Source: Jaapia argillacea MUCL 33604
Lineage: Eukaryota; Basidiomycota; Agaricomycetes; Jaapiales; Jaapiaceae
Assembly (NCBI GenBank): GCA_000697665.1
Contig: KL197771.1
Coordinates: forward strand, 62,594-126,593
Direction of reading: 5' to 3'
Length of the DNA stretch: 64,000 nucleotides
Shown: one piece after another, positions 7,877-23,355 of the stretch
Layout: every line of letters starts with the position of its first letter
Numbering within the stretch: the stretch's first letter is position 1
Program-made: the position numbers and the translations under genes
The notes under the pieces: model-generated
What the model was told of the DNA's origin: nothing
Databases searched by the model: none
The model's input: the letters and a program-made list of their open reading frames with translations, nothing else

Positions 7877-10800
7877 CTAGAAGACCGTCACGAAAGCATG
7901 TGAATCCATGTAATTATCTACATAAAAATCTTCGGCTTCTTCGAGGACGCTACTCTGTGTCCACTCTCTAGAAACTGTAGGTCCAAACTTTGGGAACAGA
8001 AGGATACTTCGACGAATGTTGGCGACCGGTATGATGGCCGCGACACGTACCCCGTCCTTGTATGTTCGAGAGACCTTGTACATCAAGTGGTTCGGCTCCG
8101 GTGACTTGAAGGTGGAAAACCACTCGACGTACGCGAGGTATCCAACATCTTCGTGTCCATTGGGAAAGAGTGATTGGAGGTCAGTGGGTCGGAGACGAAA
8201 CACAACCCGGACTTGAGCGACACGACGGCCTAGCTCAAAGAGGTCAGAACAAGCTCCAAGTCTGGGAAGGATCGCAGATGACTGACCTTCGATACCAATT
8301 GTGGAGGATGTCTCATCACCAAGATCAACAAGCACAGTATCAAATCGCGCGGGAATGGGGCGACCCCGCTTATCCTTTCGGACTCGATGAATATGAACAA
8401 CATCCATGATGTCAGGGGCATTGGCGAAATCGTGAGGGTCTGGGTTCCATAGCTTGATTTTGTGGTAGATGGGTATAGACCGAAACGGAATGAAGATGTT
8501 TGCGGCGGCGCGCTTGGTTTGAGCTGCGGAATACGATGGATTTCGACGACGAGCAACGAACATTGAGAGGGCATTGCGAAAGTCCACTGCCCCGTAGTCA
8601 TTCGCAAGATCGTCGAAGTTAACAGCGGGGCATGACGGGTTGCGTGTCATCTGGATGTGTTGGTGCTCGACCTTGTTGAGAGTTTGGGCGAGAACGGAAG
8701 GGCACCCAGCCTTTCTCCATTTGACGAAACTCTCGTGGCGGTGGATTTTCTCTTTCCGTTCTAGCCACAAGGTCATTTGAGGGTACTCTTCCTTCCTATT
8801 CGTCGACACATACGCATCCTTGGCAAAATCGATGTGGAGACGTTCGGTGGCTTCAGTATTGTAGTTGTCGGTCGTCCCAAAAAGCTCAATGGAAGTCCGG
8901 TAATGCTGCGCATTGTGCAGTTTCGGGAGGTTGAAGTGGGCTCGAATACCAAGATCGATGAAAACATCCTTATTGAGATGGAATTCTGACAGGGATTCGT
9001 CGAGCCGGTCTAAAGTACGCGCATTGTGACTTGGGTACTGAGCGATATAGAGATAATCGAGCAGGGACCGAACAGCCCTGACGAGACGGGTGGTGGACTG
9101 GTTATCGGGAAGGCGAAGGTCGACAATAAGGCCAAGTAGAATCCGGCACATGTCCTTGTGTTCCTTTCCGGAAACACGGGAAAGTGTTGTAATCCCTTTG
9201 GAAAAGTGTCGAATATTGTGGTTGGGAGGCATTCGTCGACATCGAGCGTCGATTTCGCTCGCCCCGAAGGCAGAAGTCAGCCACGTGAGTAGATGCTTGA
9301 TTAAACCTTGGTAGAGCTGATGGAGGATGTCGGGAGTGATGGACTGAAACACATCGGCGTAAGGGAGATCTTCCCAGAAAGGATGAAAGACCGGTTCAAT
9401 CCCGGCGTCGGCACATGCACGAGCAAACACCATAGGATCTTCGTCGTCGATCTTGTCCAACGCCTCCAACACCTCAACAAAATCCCGGGCCTCATAAAGC
9501 ACACCATCACCCAGCGCTTCATGCGGGACATGGCAAGTTGGACACTCTCCATTCTTGGTACATGTTACAAGTAGCTGTTCGGGATAGTCGCCGACATACA
9601 CTGCGAAGATGGGGTGGCAACGCCGAGTAACGCCGTCGCCGCTGGTCATGTGTACACCTGTGATGCCAGCCTCCTTCAAAGGTGCCAAAACTCGACGCAT
9701 GCACGCATGAAAGAGGTTTGCTAGTGCGCGACGACGAGCTGCCTTATTTGTCATGTGCTCCAATCGTGTTGTGGGGAGGTATGCGAGTAGGATTTGTCCT
9801 CGCCGAGAGGGCTTGCGTCGCACTTCCTTGGGTAGATTTCCGATGGTTATGTAGACAGGATAAGCAGTCTTGTTCCGGAAGAGGGTGAGCTGGGTCTTGT
9901 CGGAGGAAATGATGATAGGCAAAATCGTAGCACCAGGAGATTCCTTCTCAATTGCCACCTGGAATAGAGATAAGTTGAGTCCGGGTACTCAATAGCCTGG
10001 AATTTGGATTGTCGACAAACCTGTGTGCTCCACCACCACTTTCCGGTATGCATATCATGGTAGAGCCTATCTGTCTTGTCTTCGTCAAGATAATGCCGTT
10101 CAGGGGAGAATACAAGAACAGGCGAAAAGTCAGGCTCGCCCCACAGTGCTTTAACACATTCGATCACGTCTCGGAAGTAAACATCAAAGGTTTCACCCGC
10201 GATGACTATCTCCTCGCGTTTGAAATGTGGACGACCTGGAAGCTGTTCGTCGACAATCTTGTTCAGTTCCCGAGAGTTCTTGTATGATAATCCAAGAAGC
10301 TGAGAGAGCTAAACAACCACCGATCAACGAACGCACAACAATGAGGCCAGATAATGACTTACCCCTTCGATACCCAGCAACTCCGTAAAGGCAGTGGAGC
10401 CTGCGCCACGAAGCTTCCCCCATTTTGCCACGTCCCAGTCGGTCTTTGAGGTAAAAGGTGCATAGATATTATTCTGGTCTCCTCCACCAAGCGATCGTTG
10501 ATACTTGAGATAAGTTGAGCTAGCAGCATCTTTCTCGACAACAGCTCCCGCACGCCCTCCAAAACGGACAACGAATGGTCGCACTGCAGGGCGCTGCTCG
10601 GATTGGCGGCGTTCCTCACGATTCGGGGGTGGTTCATGGTCTTCTTCCATAGGCGCAGGTGGCGAATGTGATGGCAGTGAATGCGAAGGTGGTGAATGTG
10701 AATGCGAAGGTGGTGAATGTGAATGCGAAGGTGGTGAATGTGAATGCGAAGGTGGTGAATGTGAATGCGAAGGTGGTGGCTCCCAGCCTGGGGCATCATC

Positions 10801-15834: not shown

Positions 15835-15842
15835 GGTTCACC
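15835..15842. repeat. Target site duplication, left (GGTTCACC)
   Basis: GGTTCACC directly abuts the left end of the KDZ element. The identical octamer abuts the right end at 21994-22001. Confidence 0.8.
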
Positions 15843-15883
15843 GAGAATGTCCGACCCGCGGGGACTTTTGCCATATAGCAATT
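15843..15883 (+). repeat. Left terminal inverted repeat of the KDZ element
   Basis: It begins GAGAATGTCC and contains GCGGGGACT at 15858-15866 and CCATATAGCAATT. It is the inverted counterpart of 21953-21993. Confidence 0.75.
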
Positions 15884-16322
15884 GCCACATGTAAAGCAGC
15901 AAAGCAGAAAACTAGTGTTCTGCTAGATTGACTCTCCTAAGAAATTTGCTATTGCGACTATCTGGTGGATTTCTATGTCCCTCTTGGGCTCTAGTAATTT
16001 GCTCGTCCTTCAATATAGTAGTTTCCTCCAAGCGACTTGTGGGAATTTACTATTTTACGACGACACTTCCCGAGTCCCGATGACTTCAGGCTTGCATAAC
16101 GCGTTTTGCCAATGTCTCCCACCACCCTCATCATCACTGTGCACGTCCTCCTCCCCTCTGAGCAGTCTTCCTAGGCAGCACGAGGTTGGATAGGTCTGCT
16201 CTTTCGGATGGGTTTCGCGTTGCCCTTACACGCCATCTCAACGCCTTTGACATGCGGCCTTCTCATGGCCTCCCTGGACATCAAATAAGTCGAAGGCCGT
16301 TTCAAAGCACATCCTCCTACCA

Positions 16323-18518
16323 ATGGCTTCCGCACTCCTCCAGGCCTTGAGCTCTTGCCCGGAAATACTGGATACCTTGTCGCTTCACAAAATCTATCTA
16401 TTTCTCAGTCTCGTTCAACAGCTACGCCCCCGCATTGGTCGAGGGATCGCACCCCACGTTCCTGAACCTCCTTTGATTCTTGAAGACGACGTGGCAGGAT
16501 TTTTGGGGAGTGTACTGGGTGTTAATCAGACTATTGTCTCGAGATGTTGGGAGACCTTTCGTGTGTATGCCTGGGATGCAACGGGCTGGGGGGCTGATGG
16601 CCTCTTGGGGAACCCAGCTAATCTGGAGCTCTTTCTCCACCATGGTCTTCTCTATAACATTGGTGTGTCCATGCTTTTGTCCGACCTTTGAATCCTCAGC
16701 CTTACCGCCCTTCTCAGGCTTTCATGACCTTGAACCCCCAACTCGAATATGCATGGACCCGCGCTGCATACGTCCAGATGGCGCCCAGCCCGAGCTTGTG
16801 GAACGACGTTGCCACCCTGTCACCCTCTTTACGTGTGACGTTGGTGCCGTTCCAGTTTGGTCAAACTCTTTATACTGTCGTGGTGAGTCGTTATTGCTTG
16901 GGCATGGCTGTGGGTGTTCTAAACGTGATTACCTCAGGCTGTAGGACACGTTATCACCACAATTATTATGTCCACGACAGTGCAACCCAACGCACATACT
17001 ACCCTGGCATCCCTTCCATCCTACAGGGATCAAAACGTTTCTACTTTGAGGCATTGCTTTGCGAACGATTTCGCAACATGATGGTTTGCTCCTGGTGAGT
17101 CTATACATTGGATGTCATTGGGTTTTGACCCCCACTCACAACCATTGTGATAGGACTTCGGCAACAAATTGTGCAAGGATCTACAACCTTGAGACCCCAA
17201 ATGCAAGCTCACGACCTCAAATTCGGTGGCCTATCAGCCTGAAGATGGACTGCGAGAATGTTTGGGACGCGTTCTTCATGTACAGCCTGCTGAAGGATCA
17301 CCACGAGCAAGGAGCTGGTCTCACTCTCGAACACAAGGTCTCGTCTCATGCCGCTCGTCTTTTTCCTGCGCTTGAGACTCGGAACAAGGCGATGGTGGGA
17401 CCGGGCCAGCCTCGATGGAGCCATGCTTGTGACCTCTGTTGTGAGATGCGAACCACGCCCGATGGTGAGACATGTAAGTTATCTGTCAGATTTGTCTCTC
17501 TTATTTGGTTCTTATCCTTGACTCGGTGTAGGGGCCCTTCGTGCTGTTGTGACAGATGGCGTAACCCTCGGTCATCCATGCTGTCGTGTTCATGATTGCA
17601 AGACACCCCTTGAAAGCCAGCGGGATACATATTGTCCCCATCATGATGCTTTAAAGAAAAAGTGCGCTGTTGATACATGTGTCAACGAAATTGAAGCCGG
17701 CTTTCAGACATGCCCCCTCCCCGATCATCGCACACTTGAGGATAATCATCGAGAACAAAACCGCGCGATGTTTCAACTGAAGCGACGGCTCGAGAACCTG
17801 AAAATCTCCCAGACGGAAGATTCTCTTCGAACAGAGGATGGAGGCACGGTTGCAGGAGACGAGCTCGATGATGTTCAGTGTGAGGGCAAGCCGGAAGAGG
17901 GTAACCGGAAGTATCGAGCCCAATTTGGGCGGAGACGAACACATAACGAAGAGCTATGTGTTGCAACATGTGGAGTTATCCTTGGTCGCGCGACATTTTT
18001 CGGGTCGGAGGGTCCAAATGGTGTTCGAGTAAGTTCGAACCCATCTTCCATGTGATAGGATGCTCATTTCTTTGCAGGTCTTTCATCGAACTTTGTTCCC
18101 CACTCCACAATCATTGCCTGGGTGCATATTTCACGACAATAATTGCAATGTGAAGAAGGTTCTTGAATCTTTACGCGATGATTATTTCTGGAGGTGCGCT
18201 CTACCAGTGGATGTCTTTCATATGAAGACCAAGCACAAGGAATCTGATCAATACTGCAATTCCCGGTGTAATCCTGCAAACTGGCCAAGCCTGATGACTG
18301 TCGATGGGAAGTGGCGTTTCAACTCGTCTGCTGCAGAGATCACGAACGCATGGTTTGGAGGATTCCAGTCGATTGTACGAGAGATGCGAGTTGAGAGATA
18401 TAACTTTTTTCTTGACGAAATGATCAAGATACGCAATGAATTGATTGTGGAGGATCTCGAACAGAAGGGTGCTCGTCCATATAATATTCCTCGTGCTGTA
18501 TTACTTGGATCTACATAG
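16323..18518 (+). CDS. KDZ transposase family protein with CxC5 and CxC6 cysteine clusters
   Basis: Six exons (16323-16662, 16718-16882, 16938-17094, 17154-17473, 17532-18028, 18078-18518) with GT-AG introns of 49-59 nt give 639 residues with no disruption. Order: a helical N-terminus; the CxC5 region from about residue 115 (TRICMDPRCIR, SLYCRGCRTRYHHNYYV); the CxC6 region from about 335 (TLGHPCCRVHDCKTPL, YCPHH, KCAVDTC); and the C-terminal KDZ-like part. The last contains IFHDNNC, PVDVFHMKTKHK, and SSAAEITNAWFGGFQ. Asp513, Asp538 and Glu580 are candidate catalytic acids, by motif only. The clusters probably bind zinc and DNA ends. The protein would carry out transposition of the enclosing element. 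Start ATG chosen because it opens the conserved N-terminal helix; nothing upstream is in frame. Confidence 0.85.
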
Positions 18519-18698
18519 TCAACTAGTTGCTAGTACGGGATATCATGTTTGTAAAGTCATTAAGGAGGAACTAGTCAAGAAGGAATGGACGTGTAGGCAT
18601 TATCACCATAGAGGGGGGAGTAAAGGTAGAGAGCATGAATATACGTGAACAATCGGTGATGGGATGGAACAATAGTGTGTGGTAAAGGAAGGGTGCGG

Positions 18699-21389
18699 TT
18701 AATCATCAATAATTATAATGTCAGAGTCCTCTGTGAGGCGAACAGGGCTCTCCTCGAGCTTCACTGCAGCCTTGGTGGGTTCAACGATGTGGTCATCCTC
18801 ATCATCAGGGAACATGATAAAACCATATGTGTCACTAGCCTTCTTCGTCTTGATCGCCTGGTCCCGCAACAGGTTAAGGTCTGCTTGGATAAGTAGGATG
18901 GCGACCTCTGGGACTAAGACTCGGTTGACAAAAATATTGCCAGGTACGTGTATTGGCTGGGGTTCTGAGCGATTATTACGGCCAATGTACCTGATACCAT
19001 TTGTCTTGAGGTCAGGAAAGGCTTCGAGAAGGGATAGATAGATGGTTTGATATCCCTTCGGCCCATAACTAGAGGGGGTCATTCGGAAATTGAGAACGTA
19101 ATGATCTAGGAATTGGTGAAAAAACGTACTATCCAACACCAATGCTCTTCATCACTCCATATTCGCCATTGAGATAGAAGGTCTGCATGGTGCCGTCCTC
19201 CTTAACACTCTCCTCAAGCTTCTGAAAGTACGAATTGGTGTCTGGATCATGCACAATGTGCGAGAGTGTGGGGAGAAGGCTCTTGATACGCGACGGAATT
19301 TGAGAAAGGTTGATATCTGTAGGCCAGTGTTCCCGCGATGCCTGAGCGGCAACTGAACTCTCGAATCGATGTCGTTCACAATGCTGTGCAGCGGCGGTGG
19401 CGGGGATGATTCGGAGATGATCTTTATTTCGTGTGATTGCGAGATCAGGAGCTGGGGTGCTGCGAGCCTTGAGTTCATCACATTGGTCGCGGAGACATTG
19501 AGAAGGCCTGAGGGGATAGATTTCGTCGCAGAAGGGGCAGAGAAGTCGAGAGTCGAGAGCCATGAACCCATCATCCGATGAATCCGATGAATCATAGTCA
19601 TCATCAACAATCACACGGCTCATTGGCTTTGTAACCGCGTGGGGCATCTCTTCATCTGTTACGGTCGCCGGAGGATCCAGAGAGGGAGCAAGAACAGGTG
19701 CCTGTTGCCCAGACTCGATGTCCTTGAAAGCGGCCACGAATTCAGGCCATTTCCCATCTTCACTCGCTTCAAGACGTTTGAATTTGGAAATGAGGTCTTT
19801 TCCAAGAGTTTTGGCACGGCCATACACTCCCCAGTGGACAGAAAAGGTGGACTGGACGAACCGAGCACCGTCAAAGGCAGCGCAGAAGGCGTTGGGAATG
19901 CGGAGTTTCCCCTTGGAACGTTGGGCCAAAAGAAGATCCATCTTCTCAAAACCTGCGAGAATGTATGCGGCAGAGTATGATGTGGGCCAGATTGAAACAA
20001 GGTCTCCCTTCCGAGAGCGCCGCTTCCGTGACTGAAGTATAGTTGTTCGAGAGCTTCCTTCGACAAATGAAGGAGGAGCATCGCGCTCCTCAACCTTCGG
20101 GAGAAATTGAGAAATCGTAGACGGTAACTCGTCGTCACTTTCGGAGTCCAAAGTCAAGTCGATGATGTTATCTTTTCGGCGACGTTTTGGAAGTGGTTCA
20201 GAAATTTGAGTTTCGTCGTTGGGAACACTAATTGAATCGCAGGGCCATTCTCGTTTCTGGCGAGTGGAGGATGACGATAAAGGACTGCGCCCTGCACGGC
20301 CTTTGCCCTTCCCAGGGATGGGCCCATGCTTCCGGATATAAGTGTCCAGCCCAGGGCATTCGGAGTCACTAAGATGTGGACCTTGTAATCCAGATGGTAA
20401 TGCCCGGTAAAGGAGAATGTCGCCCTTGGCAACTGTTCGTGACGTAGCTCTCGTATGTCGCTCCCAGCCGGCATCGTAAGCCTCGAGGTAGATCTGATCG
20501 TTGAGGAGCCCAAACGAGTCAGAGATGGCGGGGTAGTGGGAGAGCGAGAACTTGGGGAAATGTTCAACGTCGACCGGAAATGTTACCGCCGGTTCGTTAG
20601 GCTAACCAGAATTATCAGCTTTGCTTGATTCGCACTCGCACTCGCCACACCGAAATAGCTGACCTTTGACCAATACATTATCTTGACCTGGATCTTTGTT
20701 GCGAGCTCAGAAGCACGTTGCTTCTTGTTAATCACCGAATCTTGCTTGGACGATGCTAATTGGTGTTGCTGTAACCACTCTGGACTGACATTTTGCCACA
20801 TACTTGCAAGGGGAGCCGCATGATGGGTTGATGGAGCTGTGAGTGGCTGGCTCGAGGACGACGTCGTCTGCGGTACAAGGGGTTGTTGTTGTATGCCCGA
20901 TCCTAACGGGGATGCAGTTCTGGTTGACGCCGCAGACAATCCACTACTGGAAGGCGAGATGACGTGGCGCTCCGTGGGCATGGTATGGCCATGTTGTTTG
21001 CTCAGTCGCGTCGAAAGAGCAGCGATGTCAGTTGGGTGAACACCTGTGGCGACTCGTTTCGCCAACAGCTCTTGGACAACGGCCGTCGAAAGTCGATGTT
21101 TATTGTATGCGCAGGCGCGTTGAGGTATTCCGGCTGCGATCTGCGACTTCACCAAGCTCTGGCAACAGGAAATACACTGCTTTCCGGAACATTGAGTACT
21201 GCCCTTCGTCCTCGTGCCCCCCTTAGTGACGCATGTCACCGTTGCACAATGAACGGCAGCGGCGGATCTCGTAGACGTCGACAGTGATGGCGTCGTACTT
21301 GGTTCAGATAGGAGTTGAGCATGTGGGGGGTTACGGGGTTGGTGTGATACGACGTGGTTTGTGTTAGGTAGATTTGCGAGGTCGTCCAT
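18699..21389 (-). CDS. RTC4-like domain protein, cargo gene of the KDZ element
   Basis: Three exons (21389-20688, 20601-19130, 19068-18699) join in frame to 847 residues. The N-terminus has a cysteine cluster (CATVTC, CSGKQCISCCQ, then C-x4-H; residues about 48-95). A middle segment includes a basic, nuclear-localisation-like EPLPKRRRKDN. Near residue 500 is CPFCDEIYPLRPSQC. The C-terminal part carries the RTC4 signature GVGYYGPKGYQTI. The intron 19069-19129 splits that signature, and removing it restores it exactly. The protein ends in a short acidic DIIIIDD tail. RTC4 in yeast is linked to telomere capping; what the domain does in basidiomycete elements is not known to me. Its place inside the terminal repeats makes it a transposon protein rather than a host telomere gene. 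Confidence 0.8.
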
Positions 21390-21952
21390 AGATAGCCGTC
21401 CTGATATAAGCGCCTTGACTATCTGCGGCGCTATGTCGTTGTGTAAAACGTCTGTGAGGAATAGAACGTAACGACACCACCGATTGGTGCACTGTCAGAA
21501 TGAGTTCAGTCAATGCAGAGGGGAACGGTCAACAATCGGACATACCGTGCGGTGTATACGGTTCCTGTTCAACGAGTTTCCTGTGCCCTTGTTGACGGAG
21601 GGCGGATTCAGCTGATTATGACACCGAGGGCACGAATTCAAAGCAGAATAGAGGAGCATATAAATATTAGAGCACCATGGGCATGCTGAGGTGAATATAC
21701 GATAGGGTAACAAAGAGGAGAGAGGAGAGAGGAGAGAGGAGATCGTCACTCGTGCCAAGTCATAATTTTTTTTGACACTCCGAGACAACCAGAGGGAAAG
21801 CGGCGGACCAAACAGCCAAATCGAAGACAGACTTGGGATAATATAGCATTTTTCCAGATTATTAGAGGGCGCTGAAGGCAGCGTCGCGCCAGGATGTTGA
21901 CGCAGCAATCTAGCAATTTAGCAGCTTGCCGGTTTGCCACATTGCTACCGTA

Positions 21953-21993
21953 AATTGCCATATGGGGGCAGTCCCCGCCAGCCGTACTTTTTG
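21953..21993 (-). repeat. Right terminal inverted repeat of the KDZ element
   Basis: The reverse complement begins CAAAAAGTACGGCTGGCGGG, aligning to the left end. It is followed immediately by GGTTCACC. Confidence 0.75.
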
Positions 21994-22001
21994 GGTTCAC
22001 C
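21994..22001. repeat. Target site duplication, right (GGTTCACC)
   Basis: Identical to the octamer at 15835-15842. Confidence 0.8.
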
Positions 22002-23355
22002 ACAAATTCTATGCTTTCTTCTTTGACGGGCGCTATCGGACAAAATGTGCTTATTTTGCCCGCCGGAGCAGCTCTGTATTGATTTGCCTTGCTTCAAATC
22101 ATGGTGAATAGCATTCCATCGACTCAACTCAACGGGAAATGATTGGTCTTGGTGAAAAGCCTGCTGCGGACAAAGGCCAAGCAGTTCTATCTAGGTCGAG
22201 TTAACTGCCCACTCAATTCGAATCAGTTCCATTCAGCTTCGTTTTCTTAAAGGAAATTTTGTTAACTTGGTTCCAACTGCCAAACTGGTTTGAGCCAAGG
22301 CTACGAAATCCCTGGGAGCCCTTGTATAACCATCCTTGGACAAACCTCATCAACCAGAGTTGTTTTGCAACGGTTTGAACTACCTAGGACTCGGTCAAAA
22401 CGACGGTAGCCGGTTCTAGCTCAACATTGCACACTCAGGTTAATTTTGTCCAATACGGTCCGTCATATTCTTCCCACCTTTTCAAGCCTCTTCCAGTTGG
22501 ATGTTGACTTGAATAAATCAAGGAAAATCAAAATAATTTCAGAGATAATTTCAGAAGCAGTTCTGTATGGTTTTGATTGACTATATCAAGTTTGAGGCTT
22601 TGTGGAAGAAATGGCATGAGTTTTGGACATACTGTACCATTTCGATCAATTCAACAAACTCGGGACTTTTTGATTTCTCCGACAAATCTCAGAAAACCCG
22701 AAAAATCGAAATTAAATTATTCCAGGGGTTAGGAGGAATCGGCTGTGACGCGTGGCTGTCGAATTGATCGAAATGGTACAGTAATATTTTGCTTTTCTTC
22801 TGCTTTAGAGCTTTAAGAGACCCAAATAAATTTGGAGAAACTCAGGGAAAATACCAGGGCCTTTTCTAAGTGGTCTGGAGGATCAAGGTAAGTTCTACCA
22901 CAATATGTTGCTTCTTCTTTTCTGCTTTGGAGCTCAGAGAGACATGGATAAATTCAGAAAATTCAGAGAAAATTACAAGAACAGTAGTCTTTGGATATCT
23001 CTAAATAACCTGAATGCCAGAGTTTCTAAGGTGAATGCCCCCTTTTTGCCCATTTGAAGCCTAACAAACCATGAGTAAATTGCAGTTAATTGAGAGAAAA
23101 TAACAAGGGTAGCTCTCTGTGGGTTTTTAGCTATGTAACATATTTGTTCTATATATAGAGACAAAGCACCTAGAATGATCCTTACTACACAGATGTGCGA
23201 CTTTGCAAGCCTTGGCAAGCAATGGAGCACTTGCACTACACATAGGCTGCCATAAAAAAGTCATCAGTAAATCAGAATCAATGGAGAGAAATTCTAAGAA
23301 AGGTCTTCATTGGTGGAGCTTGCAACACCGGATTATCAAGGCAGCCTCGAAAAGT
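22002..23355. repeat. Intergenic; degenerate tandem repeat of about 145 bp units (22.49-23.33 kb)
   Basis: No gene. From about 22490 on, an AT-rich unit recurs roughly every 130-175 bp (near 22500, 22660, 22805, 22950, 23085 and 23260). The better pair reads GCTTTAGAGCTTTAAGAGAC ... GGAGAAACTCAGGGAAAATA and GCTTTGGAGCTCAGAGAGAC ... CAGAGAAAATTACAAG. Copies are strongly diverged, so the array is old. Related fragments lie at 15.74 and 35.81 kb. Confidence 0.5.

Follow-up and report, generated by a model that had tools for sequence, protein, structure and literature searches.

Sequence analysis of a 64,000-nucleotide stretch of Jaapia argillacea MUCL 33604 (contig KL197771.1, positions 62,594 to 126,593 of the forward strand; hereafter the window) revealed a DNA transposon proper of 6,151 bp (15843-21993) with two convergent genes. 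Gene 1 encodes a probable transposase with the cysteine clusters CxC5 and CxC6, gene 2 an accessory protein with a C-terminal RTC4 domain. We regard the identity of the element and its long-term partnership with RTC4 as nearly certain. The overall reading, an apparently intact two-gene cut-and-paste element of a CxC5/CxC6-bearing branch of the KDZ (Kyakuja-Dileera-Zisupton) transposons with gene 2 as a modular chromatin-docking cofactor, is the one we favor, though with clear reserve, and the docking role taken by itself is put forward tentatively from sequence features. The genome searched comprised 43.7 Mb in 95 contigs, the window lying on the contig labeled C63; family counts come from genome-wide Pfam searches and are lower bounds.

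Most RTC4 Genes Accompany CxC5 Transposase Genes

The Pfam RTC4 search gave nine matches in the genome, eight at or over the cut-off and one (C28, 21.9 bits) below it. Seven of the nine were located within 4 kb of, and convergent to, a CxC5 gene (C63, C52, C40a, C13, C28, C9, and C14), against an expectation of 0.0026 per gene, while those at C48 and C38 were solitary, with no CxC5 gene. No Pfam-KDZ cluster was found within 4 kb of any of the nine. Pfam KDZ itself had 71 matches in 41 clusters, the nearest 34 kb from a CxC5 locus. The partner genes TET/JBP showed the opposite distribution: 19 of their 26 matches (17 over cut-off) were near a KDZ cluster, and none was within 4 kb of a CxC5 locus. 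In this genome RTC4 fills the place held by TET/JBP in Pfam-KDZ elements.

CxC5 gave at least 23 exon matches at at least 14 loci, and seven of these 14 loci were delimited by an exact 8-mer pair with inverted ends (the window element at C63, and C52, C40a, C13, C28, C8, and C4). The seven elements measure 5.3 to 6.4 kb, have seven different duplications, carry a GAGRA end on the transposase side and TG at the opposite end, and all contain a convergent gene 2 with a recognizable core; their top 8-mer pairs scored 10 to 33, compared with 4 to 7 for the runner-up. Only C63 and C28 lack stops and frame shifts in both gene models. No end pair was accepted at C9, C14, C57, C17, C40b, C20, or C10; at C9 and C14 RTC4 stands beside the transposase without accepted ends. 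The best pair at C40b (score 10 over 14 bp) was rejected, as it encloses 2.5 kb and has no GAGRA end, while the C40a pair, equal in score, was accepted because its ends fit the other elements. The genome search for copies with like ends, proposed in a preliminary description of this DNA, thus yielded six more delimited elements with their gene contents. The claim made there that the RTC4-like gene travels with the transposase is borne out by the seven of nine RTC4 matches convergent to CxC5, by five of the seven delimited elements, and by purifying selection.

Evidence for selection came from the ratio of nonsynonymous to synonymous substitution rates (dN/dS) between C63 and C52, which stood at 0.07 in gene 1 and 0.13 in gene 2; the RTC4 part alone gave 0.10, with a bootstrap range of 0.02-0.17. 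All three values are rough because dS, at 1.4-1.9, is near saturation. The RTC4 part is under purifying selection, which argues against a mere passenger, i.e., a host RTC4 captured once and without a role in transposition. A passenger would fit the existence of a solo RTC4-like gene (C48), the two delimited elements without RTC4, and the weak separation, in 74% of bootstrap trees, of the RTC4 rows of elements on one side from the two solo genes on the other. It fits poorly with the dN/dS of the RTC4 part, rough as that is, and with the persistence of RTC4 at seven CxC5 loci that have diverged, including the decayed C14, and we consider it quite improbable.

Three further sequences touch these families. 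At C38:169345-170483 the solo RTC4 is preceded by an acidic run (LIIDFEDDDEEL), and no CxC5 match lies nearby. A CxC6 match at C14:469000-469600 falls in an open frame of 3,307 amino acids, possibly a fused copy or one adopted by the host. At C1:3193599-3194525 a frame of 433 amino acids resembles gene 2: it matches both core segments, has no CxC5 or RTC4 match nearby, and may be a solo or adopted copy of gene 2.

Element Borders and Target Site

The element is flanked by two perfectly matching copies of the 8-bp target site duplication GGTTCACC (15835-15842 and 21994-22001), found at both places at which it had been claimed. The extent given for the element in the preliminary description, 15835-22001, had the borders right but included these 8-mers, which lie outside the element proper. 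The 41-bp terminal inverted repeats (15843-15883, forward strand; 21953-21993, reverse strand) likewise agree in position and length with that description; they are, however, not perfect, with 29 of 41 ungapped positions identical. Local alignment of the 118-bp ends scored 66.5, compared with a maximum of 47.0 among 500 random window pairs, and among exact 8-mer pairs scanned for inverted ends the GGTTCACC pair came first with a score of 17, the runner-up having 7. The left end reads GAGAA, as in C52, C40a, C13, C28, and C4 (C8 has GAGGA), and the right end terminates in TG, as in all seven delimited copies.

The flanks of the element are part of a dispersed repeat, and genome searches with the left and the right flank shared several paralogous places. 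In two paralogous copies of the invaded repeat that are without the insert (C8:283405-283470 and C1:3136715-3136780) both flanks join over one 8-mer, GGCTGGCC, at the position of GGTTCACC. This single 8-mer supports both the insertion with an 8-bp duplication and the element borders. GGCTGGCC matches GGTTCACC at five of eight bases, and the three mismatches may reflect a diverged repeat copy. A second small insert was observed in the same repeat to the right of the element, at 22022-22467 between TTCTTC copies (stretch 22016-22473). It has inverted ends, is related to stretches at C7:772592 and C63:62161, and could represent a miniature element flanked by 6-bp duplications.

Gene 1 Encodes a CxC5/CxC6 Protein With a KDZ-Like Core

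Gene 1 (16323-18518, forward strand) consists of six exons (16323-16662, 16718-16882, 16938-17094, 17154-17473, 17532-18028, and 18078-18518) and encodes 639 amino acids. Its intron phases (1,1,2,1,0) are the same in C52, C40a, C13, C28, C9, C14, and C57. After splicing, genes 1 and 2 are both open, each with GT-AG introns and a single terminal stop, and the earlier account of exactly two convergent genes open over all exons could be confirmed with products of 639 and 855 amino acids. The CxC5 cluster (residues 114-233; 16662-17190, crossing introns) matched PF18718 at 1.2e-38 and the CxC6 cluster (residues 334-398; 17549-17743) PF18721 at 1.8e-25, both far over the Pfam cut-off. A KDZ-like core follows (residues 470-639; 17957-18515, crossing one intron) with conserved D513-x2-C516, D538-x2-H541, and E580, among which D513-x2-C516, H541, and E580 are common to KDZ. 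These conserved residues may be catalytic, and D336, upstream of the core, is a candidate for the first acidic residue. In one decayed copy, C17, D513 is replaced by N.

The gene 1 family was compared by hhalign with a KDZ profile built from nine KDZ stretches of the same genome (12 were fetched; two near-copies were omitted and the third is the intermediate protein described below). The probability was 27% for the whole alignment (0.00068) and 37% for the core (0.00035). The score of the core (33.4) exceeded the maximum over 50 column shuffles (22.7) and that of the reversed profile (17.4). The intermediate protein, at C13:749k, reached 25.2 bits against Pfam KDZ, just below the cut-off of 26.6, and matched the CxC5/6 core at 89% (2e-6). 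On the basis of the profile comparison with its shuffle control and of this intermediate, we read gene 1 as a divergent KDZ-type transposase, which the sequence suggests rather than establishes.

Several points speak against this assignment. Pfam KDZ (PF18758) was not matched by gene 1 at E up to 1 or up to 10, nor by any of eight scanned CxC5/6 cores at E up to 10; the direct profile match is just 27-37% probable; the 89% match of the intermediate has no shuffle control; and the single-sequence structure prediction for the last exon was unusable (mean predicted local distance difference test score, pLDDT, 37.8). The CxC5/CxC6 proteins could instead form a separate transposase superfamily with 8-bp duplications, unrelated to KDZ. 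The lack of a Pfam KDZ match in all eight cores, the distance of 34 kb or more between the 41 Pfam-KDZ clusters and any CxC5 locus, and the same separation in Pleurotus (PMC7641404) would agree with this. The shared D-x2-C, H, and E positions, the profile match that beats its shuffles, and the intermediate sequence argue the other way, so that we hold a separate superfamily to be unlikely, if worth keeping in mind. The name KDZ given to the element in the preliminary description accordingly stands in a wide sense, for the CxC5/CxC6 clusters and the distant likeness of the core, but not for the Pfam KDZ domain. A scan of the gene 1 core against viral contigs found no relative.

Gene 2 Is a Modular Protein

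Gene 2 (18699-21389, reverse strand) has three exons (20664-21389, 19130-20601, and 18699-19068). Three donors of its first intron keep the frame open (860, 855, and 847 amino acids), and the middle one was taken, giving 855 amino acids. The protein begins with a cysteine cluster of the form C-x4-C ... C-x4-C-x2-CC ... C ... H (21093-21251), found also in C52, C40a, C13, C28, and C9. In the linker ahead of the second core segment lies a SUMO-interacting-like motif, IIDLT (20152-20166), followed by an acidic and serine-rich stretch. The second core segment itself (M2, 19705-20004), defined by alignment and hidden Markov model (HMM), is common to the elements without RTC4. A cysteine-bearing part upstream of RTC4 begins near residue 592 (19554), and the RTC4 domain (residues 699-819; 18810-19233) matched PF14474 at 5.5e-13 with 49.6 bits, compared with a cut-off of 23.7. 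Intron 19069-19129 cuts this domain, so the RTC4 signature is split as had been noted, and the profile search proposed for RTC4, CxC5, and CxC6 matched all three in the spliced proteins. The extreme C-terminus reads IIIIDD (18702-18719), with similar ends in C52, C40a, C9, and C13. A sequence search of the PDB with the RTC4 module gave nothing credible.

The RTC4 module was present in five of the seven delimited elements and absent from C8 and C4. In C8, gene 2 stops once the second core segment is complete, with about 340 bp left to the end of gene 1, and has no RTC4. An HMM of M2 built from six RTC4-bearing rows (including C28 and C9) found C4 (7.2e-10) and C8 (1.1e-8) in a set of 4,191 frames, in which no unrelated frame did better than 0.59; it listed nothing at C57, C17, C10, C20, C40b, C48, or C38. 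A search with the constant part of gene 2 found C52, C40a, C13, C1, and C4 (0.013) and missed C8, C28, and C9. Because the second core segment matches, C8 and C4 are taken to carry the same gene 2. Six elements show the N-terminal cysteine cluster clearly, and in C8 and C4 it is visible by eye only; an HMM of the six clusters matched neither of them.

Since RTC4 is absent from C8 and C4 while M2 stays, gene 2 appears as an accessory protein built of modules, its C-terminus being exchangeable. The description of RTC4 as a fixed partner is not supported in view of these two copies, which share the end pattern and the gene 2 core without RTC4, although they are a distant form of counterexample and both decayed. 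Their gene 1 frames are broken (two stops and a shift in C8, one stop in C4), and for that reason they are not clean cases against a fixed partnership; the loss of RTC4 in both is possibly secondary, by decay. In a gene 1 tree of 12 rows (C40b and C20 were dropped as too fragmentary) the RTC4 label needs four changes, and no starred branch forces more than one; such a sequence tree does not decide between a single gain with loss and several gains.

The tail of gene 2 in C4 was considered as an alpha-kinase. Against PF02816 it reached 20.5 bits (last frame) and 16.4 bits (hand-spliced), below the cut-off of 21.3, and the alpha-kinase family search of the genome listed one other gene (C10:1124k) and not C4. 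The assignment was therefore rejected and the similarity kept as a resemblance only; a PDB sequence search with the tail gave nothing credible.

Motifs of Gene 2 and CpG Decay

Strict SUMO-interacting patterns (a hydrophobic core plus acidic residues) occurred six times in five of nine gene 2 models, compared with about 0.94 expected from composition. Weaker forms were seen by eye in C52 (INLTLDSDSDDD) and C40a (IEIDLSLDSDSD). The C-termini are alike in five of six RTC4-bearing models, the decayed C14 set aside: IIIIDD in C63, IVIDD in C52, IIEIDD in C40a, IIIDDD in C9, and IEID in C13, that of C28 being unlike. As the gene 2 rows are related and not independent, the counts, and with them SUMO-interacting-like motifs in gene 2, are suggestive only. 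Of the 154 bases of C9 in CpG context, 62 read TpG or CpA in its sister copy C14, compared with 20 of 605 other C or G bases; such decay of C14 fits methylation-based silencing.

The large open frame at 7880-9988, elsewhere in the window, encodes a Plavaka transposase domain (1.6e-91) and DUF6830.

Possible Roles of the RTC4 Protein

In the mechanism that we propose, gene 1, with its zinc clusters and a divergent KDZ-type DDE core of presumed catalytic function, would recognize the GAGAA...TTTTG ends and make the 8-bp duplications. Gene 2 would bind element DNA or the transposase through its core and cysteine cluster, and the RTC4 module, together with SUMO-interacting-like motifs in some copies, would dock the complex on chromatin or repair proteins of the host. 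Docking might help insertion, end handling, or escape from silencing.

Besides the doubts about KDZ set out above, a number of results weigh against the overall reading. RTC4 is missing from two of the seven delimited elements, and no gene 2 core was found at C57, C17, C10, C20, or C40b, where the sequence covered extended by about 1.1-1.5 kb on the upstream side and 5.4-6.9 kb on the downstream side, one stretch being read in part. The seven duplications have no common motif by eye. The dN/dS estimates suffer from the near-saturated dS, and gene 1 of C52 carries a stop and a frame shift. The strict SUMO-interacting pattern is absent from gene 2 of C52, C28, C4, and C14 and from the solo C48; with a shuffle expectation of 0.07 to 0.16 patterns per gene 2 model, only C63 taken singly is rarer than 5%. 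The single-sequence structure prediction for the gene 2 core segment, with a mean pLDDT of 48.4, was unusable.

A role of gene 2 against silencing is nearly as likely as that of a cofactor. RTC4 would then keep the element expressed, for example by drawing off SUMO-dependent heterochromatin proteins, in the manner of TET/JBP. Accessory genes of other fungal transposons likewise adjoin the transposase, according to PMC12730594. The partition of TET with KDZ and of RTC4 with CxC5, and the CpG decay of C14 relative to C9, point in the same direction. On the other hand, elements without RTC4 have persisted, and RTC4 is not known to have an enzymatic motif, so that we rate a purely anti-silencing factor as conceivable but doubtful. 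Still more doubtful, in our judgment, is a generalization in which every KDZ branch would have a partner of its own against silencing or for chromatin: TET/JBP for Pfam-KDZ and, for CxC5/CxC6, a SUMO-reading modular protein that exchanges its C-terminal effector (RTC4, alpha-kinase-like, or none). If this were true, the RTC4 genes in fungal genomes of this kind would for the most part belong to transposons, and RTC4 would be a SUMO-linked chromatin module, not a telomere protein.

The preliminary description had called RTC4 telomere-associated and suggested that it may direct integration, which would here mean steering insertion to telomeres or subtelomeres. The telomere label rests on the yeast name, and PMC6162548 calls the function of yeast Rtc4 unclear. 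The name, the genetic link to telomere maintenance (PMC6162548), and the C28 copy lying 0.9 kb from a contig end would favor such steering; the other eight CxC5 loci with a recognized gene 2 (C63, C52, C40a, C13, C9, C14, C8, and C4), however, are separated from contig ends by about 42 to 710 kb, and no telomere-like motif common to the duplications was seen by eye. Four tandem TTAGGG units occur nowhere in the assembly, which makes contig ends a weak yardstick for nearness to telomeres. Telomere targeting is without support here and, in our view, very improbable.

Comparison With Known Systems

For a transposase family recognized mainly from its cysteine clusters, the window supplies a two-gene element that is delimited to the base and apparently intact. 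The split within one genome between TET with KDZ and RTC4 with CxC5/CxC6 makes it testable whether transposons pick chromatin partners, and what RTC4 does. No description of an RTC4-bearing transposon was found in the literature searched; Iyer et al. 2014, which was outside that search, may mention one, and reportedly describes KDZ transposons with TET/JBP partner genes. Fungal RTC4 copy numbers may partly count transposons, e.g., the 45 versus 15 copies given for two rusts in PMC9370660.

KDZ transposons with TET/JBP partner genes are also treated in PMC12730594. Like them, the present element is a fungal DNA transposon with a second gene putatively linked to chromatin and a core with D-x2-C, H, and E; unlike them, its gene 1 is unmatched by Pfam KDZ, and the partner is RTC4 and in no case TET. 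Its 8-bp duplication and inverted ends resemble the Zisupton and Dileera type (8-bp duplications are reported for Zisupton and one Dileera element) and differ from two Kyakuja families, which have 7-bp duplications and no inverted ends (PMC12730594).

In Pleurotus ostreatus, MSH4 is broken by a 6,792-bp insert encoding a CxC5/CxC6 protein of 739 amino acids. The authors linked the insert to a Copia retrotransposon, and their main text uses neither the term inverted repeat nor the term target site (PMC7641404). That insert is of similar size, encodes a CxC5/CxC6 protein, and has no adjoining gene of the Pfam KDZ type, as here. The Pleurotus protein is probably the transposase, which would explain why CxC5/CxC6 insertions of that fungus seemed to be without one.

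IS3EU transposons carry TET and alpha-kinase genes, 6-bp duplications, and TAYGG ends, and in rust IS3EU elements the alpha-kinase gene is opposite to the transposase (PMC12730594). The opposite orientation of the second gene is shared with our element, and the alpha-kinase recalls the tail of C4, whose resemblance is for this reason worth a test; the 8-bp duplications and GAGRA ends are different. With yeast Rtc4 (Pfam PF14474), a host gene, the element shares the RTC4 domain, which here makes up the C-terminal end of a transposon protein that has a cysteine cluster and core in addition.

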